Below are positions 15,469-24,257 of a stretch of DNA of 64,000 nucleotides, piece after piece. Origin of the DNA: Clostridia bacterium (GTDB taxonomy: Bacteria > Bacillota > Clostridia > Oscillospirales > Feifaniaceae); the NCBI GenBank assembly GCA_017427525.1, contig JAFRSP010000070.1, positions 1 through 64,000 of the forward strand. Direction: 5' to 3'. A program made the translations under genes and the position numbers. The stretch's first letter is position 1. Every line of letters begins with the position of its first letter. Under the pieces are notes generated by a model. That model saw only the letters and a program-made list of their open reading frames with translations, was not told where the DNA came from and did no database searches.

Positions 15469-16704
15469 TCAGGAAAGCCGCTCGACAAAGCCAAGAGCGC
15501 GGGCCATCATCTCCACGGCGTCGCCCCTGGTGAAGGAAGAACCGTCCCACGCAGCGGGAGCAAATCCCATGGTCTGAGCGGTATCCATGGCGGTGGCCCA
15601 TTCAAAATCCTGTCCGTCCCGGTAACCCAGGGCGCGCAGGAGAAAGGTGGCAAAATCTCGTCCCGAAGTGGCGGCGGAAGAGCCGAAGAGGGTTTCGCTC
15701 TGCCCCTTGGTGAGACCGTCACGATAGAGCAGTGAAATATGAGGAGCCGCCCAGGCGGGAAGATCGGTGAAGGGAGAATGGTTTTCGCCTGCAAGCGCTT
15801 CGCTTTCACGGTCCAGCACCCGCACAAAGAGCACGGCGGCCTCCGCCCTTGTGGGAGCACGGTCGAGCTCGTAGCCGAGATCGGTGCCGAGGAAGAGCCC
15901 CTTATCGTGCAGCAGATCGGCCATCATGAGCTGATCCGCTCCGGTTCCGGGCTGACTATCAATCAGGTTGGTATAGTAAGTGCGGCCGAAATCAAAAAGC
16001 TCCTGCATCGTGACGCCGCCGTCGACCTTGTGGGTTGGCAGCTCGGCGGGACGCTTGAGCAGATATCGGTCTTCGATCTGACTGCCAAAATCGGGATCGT
16101 CCCAAGTGACGTCGACGAGCAACCACTCCCCGTCGATCCAAACCGCATTGTAGGAGTGGTTCATCGCATCCGAGGACAAAAACAGGCAGGGGATCTGCGC
16201 CAGCCGGCAGAACAGCAGCATGGCGCGGGAGTAGCCGTCGCAAACGGCGGTTTGATTCAGGAAAACGCCGACGGGGGAGTGTGATTCAATTCCCTGTTCC
16301 CCGTAGGTGGTGTGGAGAATGATCCAATCGTGGATGGCGATCACTTTTTCACGGTCGGTCATCGAGGGGGTTAGAAGGTTCTGCAGCACAGATTCCGCGG
16401 CAGACTGGAGTTGGGCGTCGCTCATCGACTCGGGGTAGACGCCAGTGTAGGTCACGAAGCGGCTGGTGCCCTCCATATTGAGTTCGAAGTTGCGGGGAAT
16501 CAGCGCGCTGCTCAGCGAGAGGATTGTGGCGAGGCTTGCATTCCAATCCGCAGCCGCGTCGAGCTGCAGCTTGCGTCCGGAATCATAAGTATCGATCAGC
16601 CCTTCTGCGATGATGTTCTCGTAGTGGGTGAAAGCGAGCGCATTCGGGCAGAAGGTCAGAAGGAACACAAGAATAAAAACAAGTGCAAGAATTCGTTTCA
16701 GCAT
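15469..16704 (-). CDS. Secreted transglutaminase-like protein with S-layer-homology repeats
   Basis: A 411-residue exported protein: a signal peptide (LALVFILVFLLTFCPNALA), then a transglutaminase-like cysteine protease/peptidase core with the Cys-His-Asp triad in TAVCDGYSRAM, NHSYNAVWIDGEW and LVDVTWDD, then two S-layer-homology-like repeats (RAEAAVLFVRVLD, FTDLPAWAAPHISLLYRDG, FATFLLRALGYRDG) that would tether it to the cell wall. An ATG at 16704 with AAGG upstream starts the signal peptide; the frame is open for 388 more codons, but those are antisense to the SGNH gene. Likely acts on wall or surface proteins. Confidence 0.85.
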   Translation of the reverse strand: MLKRILALVFILVFLLTFCPNALAFTHYENIIAEGLIDTYDSGRKLQLDAAADWNASLATILSLSSALIPRNFELNMEGTSRFVTYTGVYPESMSDAQLQSAAESVLQNLLTPSMTDREKVIAIHDWIILHTTYGEQGIESHSPVGVFLNQTAVCDGYSRAMLLFCRLAQIPCLFLSSDAMNHSYNAVWIDGEWLLVDVTWDDPDFGSQIEDRYLLKRPAELPTHKVDGGVTMQELFDFGRTYYTNLIDSQPGTGADQLMMADLLHDKGLFLGTDLGYELDRAPTRAEAAVLFVRVLDRESEALAGENHSPFTDLPAWAAPHISLLYRDGLTKGQSETLFGSSAATSGRDFATFLLRALGYRDGQDFEWATAMDTAQTMGFAPAAWDGSSFTRGDAVEMMARALGFVERLS

Positions 16705-16941
16705 AGAAAACACCTTGTTGAATGGGCCTGTCGTATGAAAAACAGGGGCTGCGGGATCTGAGAAGACAGGGAAAAACGGGCCTCTCAGATCCAAATCAAT
16801 GAACAATACTATCATATCACAAAAGATGCATGGAGGAAAAGAGGGAAAATCTATTTTTGGGGACTTTTCGAATGCCGTTTGATGCAGTATAATGGAAAAA
16901 ACAAGATGCCATATCATAAAAAATGAAAGAGGTGCGGATTC

Positions 16942-17637
16942 ATGAAAGTCTTGTTTGTTGGCAACAGTCATACCTTTTTTAACGACATGCCCTATATGCT
17001 TCGCCTGCTTGGCGCGGCCAGAGGCATTGAAATCGACGTTGTGCAGAACACCTCCGGAGGAAGGGGTCTCGATTGGCAGGCCAATCAGTTTGATGTGCGC
17101 TTCAACATCCTCTACGGCGGATACGACTTTATCGTGTTGCAGCACATTGCGCATCCCTTCCCCGGCAAGGAAAACCTCATCGAGAGTGCTGAAAAGCTGA
17201 TTCCCTACCTGGATCGCTCCGGCAGCGTGCCGGTGCTCTACATGCCGTGGAGCGAGAAAAACAATCCTGAGGGTCAGGCGATTATCGTGGAGGCGCATGA
17301 GGCGCTGGCCAAGAAATATCCGGCCCTGCGCATGGCGCCGATCGGCCTGGTTTGGGACAAGGTTCGCAATGAGCATCCTGAGATCGAGCTCTATTATCGC
17401 GATGGCGAGCATGCTGCGCCGATCGGATCTTACCTGATTGCCTGTACCCTGCTGCGCACCCTGACCGGAGTTTCCGTCAAGGGACTGCCCAGCCATCTGG
17501 AGATGGGCAAGCCCACCTTTGCCGGCCTCAAGCTGGATAAGGTTCTGGAACAGGATTTTGCATGCGCGACCGACTATCAGCTCAACGAGGCCGCCTGCGC
17601 AGTCGTGCAGGATGCTGTGGAGACCATCCTGAAATAA
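16942..17637 (+). CDS. SGNH/GDSL-family hydrolase
   Basis: A 231-residue hydrolase without a signal peptide. The nucleophile block is FVGNSHTFFNDMP (Ser9) and the C-terminal Asp-His block is YYRDGEHAAPIGSYLIA; between them VQNTSGGRG and FIVLQHIAHP occupy the positions of the oxyanion-hole blocks. Family members are esterases or carbohydrate deacetylases. AGAGGTG precedes the ATG, and a TATAAT box at 16888-16893 is a likely -10. The gene stands alone on the plus strand between two minus-strand units, with a terminator downstream. Confidence 0.85.
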   Translation: MKVLFVGNSHTFFNDMPYMLRLLGAARGIEIDVVQNTSGGRGLDWQANQFDVRFNILYGGYDFIVLQHIAHPFPGKENLIESAEKLIPYLDRSGSVPVLYMPWSEKNNPEGQAIIVEAHEALAKKYPALRMAPIGLVWDKVRNEHPEIELYYRDGEHAAPIGSYLIACTLLRTLTGVSVKGLPSHLEMGKPTFAGLKLDKVLEQDFACATDYQLNEAACAVVQDAVETILK

Positions 17638-17756
17638 GCTGCAGGGGAAAGCCTTTCCCGTCTGCGGCGCGCTGCAAAATGGCGCATCGCACAAAGGGCC
17701 GAGCAAGTGCAAAGCGTCTGTGTTTTGCCGGCCTCTTGCAAAAATCCTTATACAGA

Positions 17757-17797
17757 GCAAAAGAAGCTCCAAGCCGATCTTCGGCTTGGAGCTTCTC
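17757..17797 (-). terminator. Rho-independent terminator
   Basis: A perfect 16-bp stem with a three-base loop (17762-17796) is followed on the minus strand by CTTTTGC. It sits between the convergent SGNH gene and ricT and would end the four-gene femX-to-ricT transcript. Confidence 0.85.
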
Positions 17798-17857
17798 GAA
17801 TTCTTGCCCGAAAATGCACGGAACGCCTGTTTTATAAAGGACTGCCTGCTCCGCAGA

Positions 17858-18715
17858 TCAGTCAGCAATCAGGTCGTCGTCGAGCATAACAGGGGTGCCT
17901 TTCTTGGTGCCATCGCGTAGGAGGGAGACTTCGCTCTTGTGGAGGTCGACCGTGGTGTCCTCGTCGATGAGATGCACGGTCAGGATCCCGCGCAGCAGAT
18001 TGACGGCAGTGACGTAGCCGCGTCCCTGATCGGTCTGCACCAGAGCGCCCTGGTGAGGCGTGCTGGAGAGAAGGGCCTCGTAAGCGTCCTGCTCATATTT
18101 CAGGCAGCACATCAGCCTTCCGCAGGTGCCGGAGATCTTAGTGGGATTGAGAGAGAGCCCCTGCTCCTTGGCCATTTTGATGGAGACGGGGCGGAATTCG
18201 TCCATATAAGAGGAGCAGCAGAAGAGACGGCCGCAAACGCCGAGGCCACCCAGCATCTTGGCCTCATCGCGCACGCCGATTTGACGCAGCTCGATCCGCG
18301 TGTGGAAATACGAGGCGAGATCCTTTACCAGATCCCGGAAATCAACGCGTCCGTCCGCCGTGAAATAGAAGAGGATCTTGCTGCGGTCGAAGGTGTATTC
18401 CACATCGACCAGCTTCATATCCAGCTTATGTGCGGCAATCTTTTGCAGACAAACCTGAAAAGCAGCCTGCTCGCGTTCTCTGTTTTCAAGAACGGTCTGT
18501 TCATCCTTGGAATCAGCATAGCGCACGACCTTTTTCAGAGGGGCGACGAGTTCGGTATCGTCAACCTCGGTGTTGCCCGCGACAACCTCGCCGAACTCGA
18601 GTCCCCGCGAGGTCTCAACCACGACGTGATCTCCCACGGCAAGTGTGAACTCACCGGGATCGAAATAATAGGCCTTACCGACCTCTTTGAATCTTACGGA
18701 ACAAACGGTAGTCAA
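17858..18715 (-). CDS. ricT: RicT/PSP1-family protein (YaaT)
   Basis: A 285-residue PSP1-domain protein. Motifs are VRFKEVGKAYYFDPGE at the start, DRSKILFYFTADGRVDFRDL, RIELRQIGVRDEAKMLGG, and cysteine pairs in GVCGRLFCCSSY and SGTCGRLMCCLKYEQ. RicT is part of the RicAFT complex that binds [4Fe-4S] clusters and stimulates RNase Y-dependent mRNA processing and developmental phosphorelays. TTG at 18715 was chosen because GGGAGG lies seven bases upstream and the family starts right before VRFK; an ATG at 18733 is less likely. The TTG overlaps the holB TGA by two bases. Confidence 0.9.
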   Translation of the reverse strand: MTTVCSVRFKEVGKAYYFDPGEFTLAVGDHVVVETSRGLEFGEVVAGNTEVDDTELVAPLKKVVRYADSKDEQTVLENREREQAAFQVCLQKIAAHKLDMKLVDVEYTFDRSKILFYFTADGRVDFRDLVKDLASYFHTRIELRQIGVRDEAKMLGGLGVCGRLFCCSSYMDEFRPVSIKMAKEQGLSLNPTKISGTCGRLMCCLKYEQDAYEALLSSTPHQGALVQTDQGRGYVTAVNLLRGILTVHLIDEDTTVDLHKSEVSLLRDGTKKGTPVMLDDDLIAD

Positions 18716-19518: not shown

Positions 19519-20642
19519 GGGGAGACCTCCCCGGAGGGTTTCTGCTCATCGAGATAGCGGCGGGGTACGGCGCTGTCGACAAACAGGGGATTGAGATCAA
19601 ACACCGCAAGATCGCCCACCTCCACCGACGCCAGATCGGTCACGTCGACCACTGTGTTGGTCAGACCGATGCGTCCCAGGGTGGGAAGCCGCTTGCCGCG
19701 AATGGTACAGTGCAGAGCGGGATTGCCGAACAGTCCCTTAACGGAATGCCAGAGATAGCGGATGCGGTCGATGGGCCGGAAAGCGTCTTTCCCGCGGACG
19801 TGTCCGAGACCGTCGGCAACGCCGGCAGTCAGCACGGCGGTGCGGGTGGGACGGCGGGTGAAGTACACATTGGTGTAGCCCACGTTGTGCCCCTTTGGCA
19901 GCTCGTGCAGTTCGGCCACTTCACATTCGAACCGCCCCAGGCGCTCGAGCTTCACAGGGGAGGGCATGGGGAGCCTTCCCACAAAAGCGCTGCCGATGCG
20001 CACGGCATCCAACCGGGTGTTGGGGTGTAGCAGCGCGCCGCAGGAGTTTGCGAGATGCCGGGTTTCAAAGGTGAGTTTTTCGGCTTCCAGCCGCTGAACC
20101 ATACTCAGGAAAAGGGTGAGCTGGTCGGCGGTGGTAGAGGCGGTGGAAAAGGAGCGGGAAAAGTGGGAAAATACTCCAATCGGCTGCAAATGCGGGCATT
20201 CGCGCAGCAGGGCAGCGCAGTCGGCCTCTTCCCCGGGGCGGAATCCAAAGCGGCCAAACCCCGTATCGAGCTTCACGTGGATTTTTACCGTTTCGCCGCG
20301 GCGGTTTGCCGTTTCCTCCAGCACCCGTGCGGCGGTTCTCGAACCGATGGCCGCCATCAGGCCGAGTCGAAGGATCTCTTCTGCCTCACTCTTCAGAGAG
20401 GTGGAGGAGAGCAGCAGGATCCCGCAGGAGATTCCGGCCTCCCGCAGGATGCGGGCGTCGTCGATCGAAGCGACGCAGAGCGTGGGAATGCCTTCCTGCA
20501 CCAGGGTTTTCGCAAAGGGGACGAGCCCCATTCCAAAGCCATTTGCCTTGCAGACGCCGTAGATCGGAACATCTCCCATCGTGGCCTGCAGCGTACGGAT
20601 ATTACGGCGCAGCGCGCTGAGATCAACCACAAGTTGTCGCAT
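19515..20642 (-). CDS. alr: Alanine racemase-like PLP enzyme lacking the usual catalytic tyrosine
   Basis: A 375-residue fold-type III PLP enzyme. The PLP lysine is Lys32 in YGVCKANGFGMG (usually VKANAYGHG). The barrel shows IHVKLDTGFGRFGF and RHLANSCGALLHP. The C-terminal beta domain contains LTAGVADGLGHV, where typical racemases have GYADG; Val275 therefore replaces the catalytic tyrosine. A segment around PIDRIRYLWHSVKGLFGN is an insertion relative to classic Alr. Classic enzymes supply D-alanine for the cell wall. GGAGGAGG precedes the ATG at 20642. With femX upstream, a wall role is plausible, but activity is uncertain. Confidence 0.8.
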   Translation of the reverse strand: MRQLVVDLSALRRNIRTLQATMGDVPIYGVCKANGFGMGLVPFAKTLVQEGIPTLCVASIDDARILREAGISCGILLLSSTSLKSEAEEILRLGLMAAIGSRTAARVLEETANRRGETVKIHVKLDTGFGRFGFRPGEEADCAALLRECPHLQPIGVFSHFSRSFSTASTTADQLTLFLSMVQRLEAEKLTFETRHLANSCGALLHPNTRLDAVRIGSAFVGRLPMPSPVKLERLGRFECEVAELHELPKGHNVGYTNVYFTRRPTRTAVLTAGVADGLGHVRGKDAFRPIDRIRYLWHSVKGLFGNPALHCTIRGKRLPTLGRIGLTNTVVDVTDLASVEVGDLAVFDLNPLFVDSAVPRRYLDEQKPSGEVSP

Positions 20643-20661
20643 GGGGTTTTCCTCCTCCCGG

Positions 20662-21738
20662 TCAGGCCTTTGCACCGCGGTTTTTCAGACGATAGAGGGT
20701 GCGCATTGTCTTGTTGTAGACCTTGCGCAGTTGCTCGATGGACTTTGCCACGGTCGGCTTGAAGCAGAGCTCAAATTCGCCGCAGAACTCCACCAGCTCG
20801 CCGCCGAAGCCGCGCTTGAAGCGATAGAGACCATAGAGCGGGTTGTCTTCCGAAAGATCGCCCGAAACTCCGCGAAAATCATAAAGCGTGCAGCCCTCCG
20901 CAAGAGACCAGCGCATCATTTCCCACTGCAGAAGATAGTTGGGCATCACGTTGCGGAACTGGTTGGAGGAGGCGCCATAGAGATACCAGACCTTGTCGCC
21001 GTAGTGGATGGCGAGGGTGCCGGCGATGGGCTTGTCCTCATAAAAGGCCATGTAGAGCCGCAGGTTTTGGCCCATACTATCCATCATGCGCTGGAAATAG
21101 GAGAGCGGACGGGTGACAAAATTGTCGCGCATACCGGTTTCGATCATAATATTGTAGAACGACTCCAGCATCTCGGGGCCGCAGATGCGCACCTCCACTC
21201 CCTTGCGGCCGGCCAGGCGCACATTGTAGCGCCACTTGCCGTCGAACCCGTTCATGAGATCCTCCTCCGTTTTGCCCAAAACCGGCAGACGGAAGACAAA
21301 GCGCGGCTGGATGCCCTCGAAGTTCTTTCCCTCGGCATGCAGCACAAAGCCCTGCCGCTTCATGATCTCACAAAAGAGCGCATCGTCGCTCCGGATATCA
21401 GGATCGAGCTTGAAGGTAAAGCCCCGCCGCTCTTTGGCGAGACGGCGCGCCCCCTCCATGAGAGCTGCAATGGTCGCCTCGTCGTGCGGGTCGCAGACCG
21501 GGCCGCGGGGGGAATAGAGCATGGTATAGGGCATGCCGGGCATCCGGCGGATGAGGATGGCCATGCTGCCGCAGATGGCGCCGTCCTCCCCGCGAACCAG
21601 CACGACCTGCCAATCCCACTCGTTTTTCACGCCTGCCCAGATCACGCTCTGGCAAAAATGCCCCTTGGGATGTGCCATATTGAACGCCTCGTATTCAGCC
21701 AAACGGGCCGGATCGTCGCGGTTGAGAAATTCTATCAT
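20662..21738 (-). CDS. FemAB/FemX-family peptidoglycan bridge aminoacyltransferase
   Basis: A 358-residue Fem-type protein with two GNAT-like folds: FCQSVIWAGVKNEWDWQ, YSPRGPVCDPHDEATI, DGKWRYNVRLAGRKGVEVR, FYEDKPIAGTLAIHYGDKV, YLYGASSNQFRNVMPNYLLQ and YGLYRFKRGFGGELVEF are all family hallmarks. Fem proteins add amino acids from aminoacyl-tRNA to the peptidoglycan stem peptide in the cytoplasm. It is the first gene of the femX-alr-holB-ricT unit, 19 bases from alr, linking wall synthesis to replication genes on one transcript. Confidence 0.9.
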   Translation of the reverse strand: MIEFLNRDDPARLAEYEAFNMAHPKGHFCQSVIWAGVKNEWDWQVVLVRGEDGAICGSMAILIRRMPGMPYTMLYSPRGPVCDPHDEATIAALMEGARRLAKERRGFTFKLDPDIRSDDALFCEIMKRQGFVLHAEGKNFEGIQPRFVFRLPVLGKTEEDLMNGFDGKWRYNVRLAGRKGVEVRICGPEMLESFYNIMIETGMRDNFVTRPLSYFQRMMDSMGQNLRLYMAFYEDKPIAGTLAIHYGDKVWYLYGASSNQFRNVMPNYLLQWEMMRWSLAEGCTLYDFRGVSGDLSEDNPLYGLYRFKRGFGGELVEFCGEFELCFKPTVAKSIEQLRKVYNKTMRTLYRLKNRGAKA

Positions 21739-22177
21739 GAGCGACTGCCTTTCTTTTCGCCCGGCGCAAAGACCATCGGCCGGGCTTGATCAATGGAATC
21801 CCCTTGGAAGAAGGGCGAAAAGGAATCCGTTATATGGGAACAATACAATTCTATCTTACCACATTCGGCCCCCCGCGTTCAAGAAGAGAGTGAGGGGCTT
21901 TGCCGAGAAAAATTCCGGCAGCTGTGGGAAATAAAAGCTTTGGAGCGGAGCCCTGCGTGAGAGCGTTTTGCTTTGGCGCCTGGTTCGGGTAGCTTTTTTT
22001 CTTTTGATGTGGTATACTAAAAAACAAGAAACCCTCGCGGCAGTGTTCGGAGTCGGGAGATGCGGGCGGCGGGAAGAGAGCAGCCGAAGAAGAACGACTG
22101 CTCTTTGCTTTTCGCACGGGGCGTTTTGCGCCGGAAAGAGCGCAGAAAACCCTCACAGAATGTTCACGCAAATGCGG
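21739..22177. other. Intergenic region between divergent units
   Basis: About 440 bases lie between the femX start and the strong plus-strand promoter. No gene with a ribosome binding site was found on either strand. Short frames here are compositional. Confidence 0.5.
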
Positions 22178-22206
22178 TTGACAAATGGAAGGACTCTCCA
22201 TACAAT
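22178..22206 (+). promoter_or_regulatory. Sigma-A promoter for the GspC/secretin-like pair
   Basis: A perfect TTGACA (22178-22183) and a near-perfect TACAAT (22201-22206) are separated by 17 bases, about 108 bases upstream of the GTG start. Confidence 0.8.
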
Positions 22207-22313: not shown

Positions 22314-22775
22314 GTGCCAAGCCCACGAAAAAAGAAAAGCTTTCCCACGGTTCGCAGCTCCAAAACCAGAGCGCGGGCTGCCTTTACCGTGTTTTTGCTC
22401 ATCCTGGCTGCCGCGCTCGTGATTCTGCTGGCGACCTTTTTACGGCACCCCGAGGTGATTGCGGAATATCGCAACCGCTCAAATTTGGTGGTGGAGAGCG
22501 GACAGGCGCAGCTGCTCGACAGCCTGACCAAGGCACCGATGCTGCCCGAGACGGTATCGACCATTCGGTTGGACGGAATCTTTGTCCGCAGGGCCGGCGA
22601 AAACTATGCCACCTTCACGGTGGATGGGGTGACGGCCACCATGGTGGAGGACGATTACATTGGAAGCTATCAGATCGCAACCATCGCCTCCGACGGCGTG
22701 ACCCTCAAGGGTTCGGACACCGTGAAGCTGACCATGGCGGACAACAAACTCGATCTTACCCATGCGGAGGAATGA
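22314..22775 (+). CDS. Membrane-anchored protein with GspC/PilP-like C-terminal domain
   Basis: A 153-residue protein: basic N-terminus, one membrane helix (AAFTVFLLILAAALVILLATF, residues about 22-42), a linker, then a small beta domain (STIRLDGIFVRRAGENYAT followed by DDYIGSYQIATIASDGVTLK). That layout and the Gly-rich YIGSYxIxxIxxDGVxL pattern recall the homology-region domain of GspC or PilP, which in diderms docks onto secretin N-domains. The GTG at 22314 has AGGAGG eight bases upstream. The next gene encodes secretin-type N-domains four bases later, which supports the analogy. The similarity is by eye and needs profile support. Confidence 0.6.
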   Translation: MPSPRKKKSFPTVRSSKTRARAAFTVFLLILAAALVILLATFLRHPEVIAEYRNRSNLVVESGQAQLLDSLTKAPMLPETVSTIRLDGIFVRRAGENYATFTVDGVTATMVEDDYIGSYQIATIASDGVTLKGSDTVKLTMADNKLDLTHAEE

Positions 22776-22779
22776 CCCC

Positions 22780-24129
22780 ATGATGAAACGATGGATTTCG
22801 ATTATTTTGGCGGGCGTTCTTTTGGCACTGTGTCTGCTTTGCGGCGCGCTGGCAGCCTCTGAGGATGAGGTGCCGGAGAGTACCGGCGAAGAGGAACCCC
22901 TTTCGGCCTACCCTGCCCTTGCTCCGCCCAGCGGCGCAGGGCTGGTACAGCGCAACGCCTATGTGCCTGCCCCTGAAGAACGAAGCCTGAGCGCGGAAGA
23001 GCTGCTCGGCTCGGTGACCTATCTCTCGGACGCAGTTGTGAAGCTGATGCCCGAGACCCATGAATTCATTTCACTGGATTATCAGAATACCGATCTGCGG
23101 GAACTTGTGGCCCTCATCGGCAAGGTTGACGGAAAGCATGTGCTTTATTTCGGAGACCCGGTCAGGGTCACTGTGAAGGCCAATGTGGTCACCCCGATGA
23201 AGGCGCTGGATCTGACGCTGGAAGCGGCCGACCCCGACCTGACATACGTTTTGATGGACGATGTGATCGTGGTGGGGCCAAGCTCGCTGGTGACCAACAC
23301 CTTCCCCTATACCGATGTGGTAGTGACCAAGCGGCTGAACTACCTCACCGTGGAGGCCTTGAAGACCACCGCAGAGCTCCAGGGGATTCCCTACACGGCC
23401 ATCGAGCCGACCGAAAACGGCGTTTCGATCACTGCGCCTCCCTATGAGCTCACCTATCTGCTTTCGCTGGTGGAGGCGCTCGATCTGAAGGAGAACTTTA
23501 TCAATGCCGACACGGCGCCTGAACTGATTTTGGAGCGTCTGGAACTCAAATATATCACGGGAAAACAGTTCCTTTCACTCGCCGAGAAGTTCGGGGTTCG
23601 AGCCGGCGTGGTGGACGACTACAGCAACAAGCATTTGGTTTATCTGACAGGGCCGGACGCCACAATCACGGCGCTGCGCCGCACTGCGGCCTCCTTTGAT
23701 GTGGAGGCCTGCGCCAAGCTCTCGCCGACGGGATCTGCCATTCAGGCGCAGCCCTATCATCTCAAAACTGCGGCGCCCGCCGACATGAAGACCATGCTGG
23801 AATCCTGCGGGATCGCCTTCAATGTGCTCGACATGGGGGACGGACGCAGCACGGTATACGCCCTCGGCGGTCAGGCAGAAACGGCCCAGGCCGTTGCACT
23901 GATGGAGCGGCTCGACGCGGAGGGAATGCGTCTGCTGGTGATCGGCAGCGGAGCCGAATCCAAGGATATGACATGGCTTAGAGACGTCATTGTGAAGGAG
24001 ACCGATCTGCAGAAAAAGAACTTCGTCGTCACATCCAATCTCGGCTATGGAGAAAACCGCTACTATCTCTGCTGTATTGCCGGTGAGGAGGAGCTTGCCC
24101 AGGCGCAGCCCTATGTGTCGCTGCCCTGA
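22780..24129 (+). CDS. Exported protein with secretin N-domain-like repeats, no secretin barrel
   Basis: A 449-residue protein: signal peptide (IILAGVLLALCLLCGALAA), a linker, then an STN/N0-like domain at about 96-166 (FISLDYQNTDLRELVALIG, LDLTLEAADPDLTYVLMDD). Three repeats follow at about 186-236, 253-308 and 324-380, each ending in the ring-building pattern of secretin N1-N3 modules (GVSITAPPYELTYLLSLVEALD; LVYLTGPDATITALRR; VYALGGQAETAQAVALMERLD, shown in part). The outer-membrane secretin domain is absent. The start at 22780 follows GGAGGA eight bases upstream. It may form a ring or scaffold outside the membrane with the GspC-like neighbour. Confidence 0.62.
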   Translation: MMKRWISIILAGVLLALCLLCGALAASEDEVPESTGEEEPLSAYPALAPPSGAGLVQRNAYVPAPEERSLSAEELLGSVTYLSDAVVKLMPETHEFISLDYQNTDLRELVALIGKVDGKHVLYFGDPVRVTVKANVVTPMKALDLTLEAADPDLTYVLMDDVIVVGPSSLVTNTFPYTDVVVTKRLNYLTVEALKTTAELQGIPYTAIEPTENGVSITAPPYELTYLLSLVEALDLKENFINADTAPELILERLELKYITGKQFLSLAEKFGVRAGVVDDYSNKHLVYLTGPDATITALRRTAASFDVEACAKLSPTGSAIQAQPYHLKTAAPADMKTMLESCGIAFNVLDMGDGRSTVYALGGQAETAQAVALMERLDAEGMRLLVIGSGAESKDMTWLRDVIVKETDLQKKNFVVTSNLGYGENRYYLCCIAGEEELAQAQPYVSLP

Positions 24130-24212: not shown

Positions 24213-24257
24213 AAAACGAGAATACGGCGGCCAACTCCATGGAGTTGGCCGCCGTAT
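24213..24257 (-). terminator. Rho-independent terminator of ychF
   Basis: A perfect 36-base palindrome (24222-24257, ending gttggccgccgtat) is followed on the minus strand by TCTCGTTTTTTC. It lies in the convergent gap between the secretin-like gene and ychF; on the plus strand there is no comparable T run. Confidence 0.8.

Follow-up and report, generated by a model that had tools for sequence, protein, structure and literature searches.

Features of the locus

The DNA analyzed here, called the window, is the whole stretch of 64,000 nucleotides at the start of contig JAFRSP010000070.1 of a Clostridia bacterium (assembly GCA_017427525.1). The organism is a gut bacterium with a genome assembly of 1.42 Mb in 74 contigs (94% complete), and its family lies near Candidatus Galloscillospira; one of its two sister genomes belongs to an uncultured Clostridia bacterium, the other to Candidatus Galloscillospira excrementipullorum (Oscillospiraceae). 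Two genes, A and B, are read together on the plus strand, and the features around them are the following.

20662 to 21738, minus strand: femX, a FemAB-type ligase gene (Pfam FemAB, E 1.6e-65), divergent neighbour outside the pair
22178 to 22206, plus strand: sigma-A type promoter TTGACA-17-TACAAT, agreeing with the consensus at 11 of 12 bases, which does not prove that it is active
22314 to 22775, plus strand: gene A, membrane-anchored PilP/GspC-HR family protein, 153 aa, GTG start
22554 to 22739, plus strand: HR domain of A, residues 81-142, the extent of the fold match to 3oss_C
22780 to 24129, plus strand: gene B, 449 aa, coding for an exported protein of secretin N-domains without a barrel; its N-terminus looks like a signal segment
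23062 to 23289, plus strand: N0/STN domain of B, about residues 95-170, from a PilQ N0 profile match and a VIA fold match
23290 to 23928, plus strand: three secretin-type repeats of B, about residues 171-383, from a sub-threshold Secretin_N match, a GspD N-domain profile match and the model
23929 to 24126, plus strand: C-terminal domain of B, about residues 384-449, aligning with the last domain of pilus-linked relatives at a weak identity of 16%
24222 to 24257, no strand: terminator-like bidirectional hairpin with a 16-pair stem, between B and ychF

The initial annotation of this DNA had described a two-gene unit at 22314 to 24129 behind a promoter of its own. Both the span and the promoter were recovered, and only the start of B was changed, to ATG 22780 (or 22783); the open-frame start at 22762 is too early because the ribosome site GGAGG sits within the 3′ end of A. 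The spacing between the genes is 4 nt, A has a good ribosome site of its own (AGGAGG), and ychF lies beyond the hairpin, convergent with B.

Other open frames were seen in the same surroundings. Frames of 402 aa (window 20581-21789, plus strand) and 844 aa (locus L011, 6425-8956, plus strand) run antisense to femX/alr and neighbours, and are probably shadow frames of G+C-rich coding DNA. A 799-aa protein with a transglutaminase core domain is encoded at 15469-17868 of the window (minus strand), adjoining the PSP1 gene.

Domain identity of the two proteins

Protein A has a single hydrophobic helix, with the 19-residue hydrophobic windows beginning at residues 18-32, which gives it an N-terminal membrane anchor, and the C-terminal part after this helix is a beta domain. 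The window protein searched alone gave no useful profile match, and Pfam PilP (PF04351) had no match in it; among 24 members of the A family, PilP was matched below threshold in seven and T2SSC in six (both E up to 0.1). The family profile built from these 24 sequences matched Neisseria PilP (2ivw) in the PDB at E 1e-5 and the GspC HR at E 0.0017. The AlphaFold model is weak overall (mean pLDDT 56, built from four sequences, those of the window and related loci), and its beta domain has the PilP/HR beta fold: the best match was the GspC HR of the GspC-GspD complex (3oss_C; Z 8.6, rmsd 2.0, 60 residues), PilP followed at Z 7.7, every one of the ten top rows was a PilP, a GspC-type protein or a Dot/Icm component, and after these the score fell to Z 4.3 for an unrelated row. 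A had been annotated as a single-pass protein with a GspC-like domain, and it is one.

Protein B was analyzed in the same way, with a family profile of 12 sequences from which LysM had been removed. Its matches included six PilQ N0 entries, two at E 2e-8 and four below 1e-6, and the GspD N-domains at E 2.6e-5. Pfam Secretin_N was found in the window protein at residues 255-310 (E 3e-5, below the curated cut-off) and in relatives above the cut-off, in up to three stretches. The B model, also weak (mean pLDDT 56, from four sequences, those of the window and related loci), contains further alpha/beta repeat units, from which three repeats and a C-terminal domain were assigned. At E 0.001 or lower Foldseek gave 38 matches, every one a secretin, and the PilQ N0 fold was found by VIA at Z about 10. 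Since the N0 fold is also present in phage baseplates and TonB receptors, the sequence is a stronger argument for B than the fold. The secretin barrel (PF00263) is absent from window B and from the window genome. Thus the earlier description of B as an exported protein with an STN/N0 domain, three repeats and no barrel stands, and the secretin-N and PilP/GspC likeness on which the annotation depended was found through the family profiles.

Distribution and operon context in other genomes

The pair is conserved at 61-68% identity in the two sister genomes and, by profile, across several families, and by sequence this conservation is more than would be expected from chance. A first profile including LysM (A1) matched 258 of 394 genomes, mostly via LysM alone, so the counts were taken with a LysM-free profile (A3). 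Six of the eight genomes of the window's family have B. The LysM-free profile found it in 18 other genomes among 391 of the class, to which searches by gene order added six.

In other monoderm Clostridia the two genes head a type IVa pilus operon with the order A-B-PilT-PilC-PilM-PilN-PilO-PilB. Outside the window's family 20 loci extend far enough to be informative, four further loci stopping at contig edges, and in 20 of 20 a pilus gene lies directly 3′ of the pair (PilT in 18, PilC in two); where the contig continues beyond it, PilC, PilM, PilN, PilO and PilB are found. In locus L016 the Pfam families T2SSE, T2SSF, PilM, PilO and T2SSE/MshEN were confirmed. A adjoins B, as expected of the partner of a secretin gene, in the window as elsewhere, and the pilus operon surrounds them in the relatives, not in the window. 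The annotation had proposed that the pair could be a new system; it does stand alone in the window, but it has relatives, and these are the first two genes of type IVa pilus operons.

The architecture LysM plus STN plus Secretin_N occurs in many relatives of B, while B of the window genus has no LysM. Loss of LysM was considered as a marker of pairs outside a pilus operon (called orphans below) and was rejected, because B of family f32 has no LysM although it is pilus-linked and B of two orphan genomes has one.

Some pilus-linked loci were irregular. In G536 the A homologue of the pilus operon (L111:10555-10980) has a lipobox-like start (FISGC) and no plain membrane helix, comparable to diderm PilP, and B is a short open frame of 263 aa. 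In G492 an in-frame TAA splits B into two open frames (L096:3482-4909) in an otherwise intact pilus operon, which is a sequencing error or a pseudogene. In genus g211 a B homologue was seen in two loci (L103:8374-9978 in G437 and L110:2-970 in G515) with no recognisable A directly upstream.

The readable contexts of the pair in the window's family contain a FemAB-type ligase, alanine racemase, DNA polymerase delta′ and PSP1, and zero pilus genes. Such neighbours could mean that the pair is a wall-synthesis scaffold, organising peptidoglycan enzymes such as the divergent FemAB-type ligase and alanine racemase and surrounding no fibre. The idea gains from femX and alr adjoining the pair in different genera (the window, L014 and L015) and from the LysM domains in B of the two orphan genomes; against it, transcription of these neighbours runs away from the pair, and unrelated housekeeping genes (PSP1, DNA polymerase delta′) share the cluster, so that the arrangement may be plain synteny. 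We consider it unlikely, though the least improbable of the alternatives weighed here.

Pilus, secretion and sporulation genes in the lineage

Four independent filament families were searched in the genomes. The window genome (G000) has in its assembly no T2SSE ATPase (PF00437) above the cut-off, no platform protein (PF00482), no N-methyl pilin (PF07963) and no prepilin peptidase (PF01478). In two genomes of the same genus (G002, G004) platform protein, N-methyl pilin and prepilin peptidase are likewise missing, and no T2SSE match exceeds the cut-off; all three are draft assemblies, 92-97% complete. The same four families were not found in G007, which carries the pair and is 75% complete (for T2SSE, none above the cut-off). 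The annotation had seen no pilus or secretion gene near the pair, and for the four families this extends to the whole assembly. It had also named pair occurrence only within full pilus loci as a case that would speak against it; six genomes of the family carry the pair outside a pilus locus, and three of these six (92-97% complete) have no pilus genes of the families tested.

Elsewhere in the family the pair occurs with unlinked filament genes, namely a pilin cluster and a PilT-like gene in G005 and a Tad-like cluster in G006, and in G001 and G003 filament genes occur without the pair. With the pair present where the filament is missing and the filament present where the pair is missing, the two are uncoupled within the window's family, the draft state of the genomes being the caution.

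Pilin and platform-protein clusters of another type, with no pair in them, were noticed in L129 (G005:C11:1-12000) and L134 (G001:C25:1-8000), one of them with a 527-aa PilM-like frame.

Another reading is that the pair still works with a type IV filament, encoded by genes that the draft assembly lacks or that are too diverged to be recognised. The assembly is indeed only 94% complete, and G005, of the same family, has its pair together with the unlinked pilin cluster and PilT-like gene; yet three genomes of the genus have none of the four families, and G001 and G003 keep filament genes with no pair, and an overlooked filament is accordingly rated as improbable.

The envelope was surveyed with secretin and Omp85 searches, in which outer-membrane control genomes gave positives. 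Among 29 genomes with the pair there was no secretin above the cut-off and no Omp85; by this sequence test the pair-bearing genomes are taken to be monoderm, as the annotation had assumed for the window, and a diderm envelope was rejected since Omp85 was missing from all 29. A full secretin elsewhere in the genomes was rejected as well, the PF00263 matches in G084, G437, G620 and G753 being below the cut-off and covering the last 45 positions only. The start of the locus of one such weak match (L115) looked, by eye, like an ABC-transporter permease.

A search of the genome for GspE, GspF, pilins and sporulation genes had been proposed with the annotation; GspE/GspF and pilins are missing in G000, and the sporulation gene SpoIIIAH is present. 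This bears on the explanation that the pair is a sporulation part, a channel or ring in endospore formation like SpoIIIAG/AH, a comparison that the annotation had drawn. SpoIIIAH is found in G000 and in most of the pair genomes tested, and the lineage may sporulate; however, genomes with the pair inside a pilus operon have it too, as does G003 without any pair, while G007 has the pair and no SpoIIIAH match (in an assembly only 75% complete). SpoIIIAG/AH was not among the sequence or fold matches listed, which does not exclude likeness, and the matches obtained were PilP and PilQ/GspD. The comparison therefore gained no support of its own, and a part in sporulation seems to us about as improbable as an overlooked filament.

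The orphan clade and selection

In an unrooted tree the B proteins of the orphans fall together on one side of a branch supported at 98/97, and a long branch (2.06) leads to the subgroup of the window. Having no root, the tree is formally compatible both with a lineage that lost its pilus and with pilus operons that took up a free pair. Domain by domain, orphan and pilus-linked copies are 16-29% identical, so the biochemical properties of the orphan pair may have changed; the most similar domain of B is N0, at 29% as compared with 16-22% elsewhere. In A, 18 of 19 pilus-linked copies carry a DPF/NPF box directly ahead of the HR domain; none of five orphans, the window included, has it, and by eye the sixth orphan, that of G005, is without it too.

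In Neisseria and Pseudomonas the C-domain of PilP binds the N0 of PilQ, and the region before this domain probably binds PilN and PilO (PMC3441751). We infer from the position of the box that it is linked to PilN/PilO, and as N0 is best kept and the box is gone, the orphans appear to have retained the side of A facing B and to have altered the side possibly facing PilN/PilO.

Rates of substitution were calculated by the Nei-Gojobori method with our own script. Comparing the window with its sisters gave dN/dS values of 0.15-0.22 for both genes, at nearly saturated synonymous sites; the two sisters compared with each other gave 0.05-0.07. The orphan pair is under purifying selection. A relic, in which the pair would be the decaying remainder of a lost pilus operon, would suit the absence of pilus genes, the missing LysM and DPF box and the branch of 2.06; but the open frames are intact in six genomes of the window's family, dN/dS within the genus is 0.05-0.22 for both genes, and promoter, ribosome sites and gene spacing are intact as well, which makes decay highly improbable.

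The four alternatives, wall scaffold, sporulation part, overlooked filament and relic, fit less well than the reading preferred here, which takes A and B for the module at which PilP and PilQ meet in a type IVa pilus machine of monoderms, since separated from the pilus and kept as a ring in the wall zone. This reading as a whole is held with moderate confidence. Its part concerning origin, a pilus-derived PilP-PilQ-type module that is now uncoupled, is very probable, and its part concerning mechanism, a ring with a reused role, is only slightly favoured.

Proposed mechanism

A would be held in the cytoplasmic membrane by its one helix and would project its PilP/GspC-HR domain. B would be exported, its N0 docking on A through beta-strand edge pairing; this proposed binding of HR to N0 is drawn from gene adjacency and from N0 being the best kept domain. 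The repeats of B may then pack laterally and so build, within the wall zone, a ring or collar that has no outer-membrane barrel. In piliated relatives such a collar would sit at the base of the pilus, often fixed to peptidoglycan by LysM, and would lead the fibre across the wall. For the window's family, where the pair is unlinked from pilus genes, A has lost its DPF box and B of the genus has no LysM, the pair would be under selection as a stand-alone ring from membrane to wall, for another task.

Value of the findings

1. How monoderm type IV pili cross the wall, and whether a channel protein exists, has been stated to be open (PMC6916266; PMC5007114), and PilP and PilQ have been stated to be absent from monoderm pili (PMC4471445; PMC9765702). 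The operon, in which pilT is preceded by a PilP-like gene and by a PilQ-like gene that has no barrel and often a LysM domain, provides a concrete candidate for wall passage, and the question becomes testable through a single deletion.

2. The window's family offers a natural experiment: the presumed collar is retained there in the orphan pair, and the pilus is gone. It suggests that a wall-crossing ring, said to be absent from monoderms, has been kept for another use.

3. A wider proposal is put forward tentatively: that monoderm Clostridia have a pilus collar of a PilP-type and a barrel-less, often LysM-bearing PilQ-type protein, and that in one Oscillospiraceae lineage, with neither pilus nor secretion ATPase, it has become an independent ring with a new function. 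In the open literature that was searched no PilP-type partner, LysM-bearing barrel-less PilQ or pilus-free pair was found, and the novelty may be overstated.

Comparison with known systems

The sporulation channel SpoIIIAG/SpoIIIAH combines, in a monoderm, a membrane protein with a ring protein that is related to secretion rings; neither SpoIIIAG nor SpoIIIAH was among the matches listed for the pair, and the window genome has a separate SpoIIIAH. GspC-GspD of type II secretion is alike in its HR domain with one membrane helix and in its N0-N1-N2 domains, whereas A has no further C-terminal domain such as PDZ, B has no barrel, and the genome has no GspE/GspF.

The monoderm type IVa pili share the machine of PilB, PilC, PilM, PilN, PilO and PilT without an outer membrane; those of Streptococcus sanguinis and Clostridium have been described without PilP or secretin, and a large PilO has been proposed for wall passage (PMC6916266). 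Imam et al. (2011, PMC3244431) reported PilQ homologues from a few Gram-positive pil operons (Desulfotomaculum reducens, Pelotomaculum thermopropionicum), describing them as secretin homologues that may have been acquired from Gram-negatives and mentioning neither PilP nor LysM nor lack of a barrel; they resemble B, compared by description only, as PilQ-related proteins in a Gram-positive pil operon.

PilP-PilQ of the diderm type IVa pili (Neisseria, Pseudomonas) shares with the pair a membrane-anchored HR-type protein beside a protein of N0 plus repeats and, in relatives of the pair, the place in a pilus operon. The pair differs in having no barrel and no outer membrane around it, in the transmembrane helix that anchors A where diderm PilP has a lipid, in the LysM of B in many relatives, and in the lack of a pilus in the window genus.
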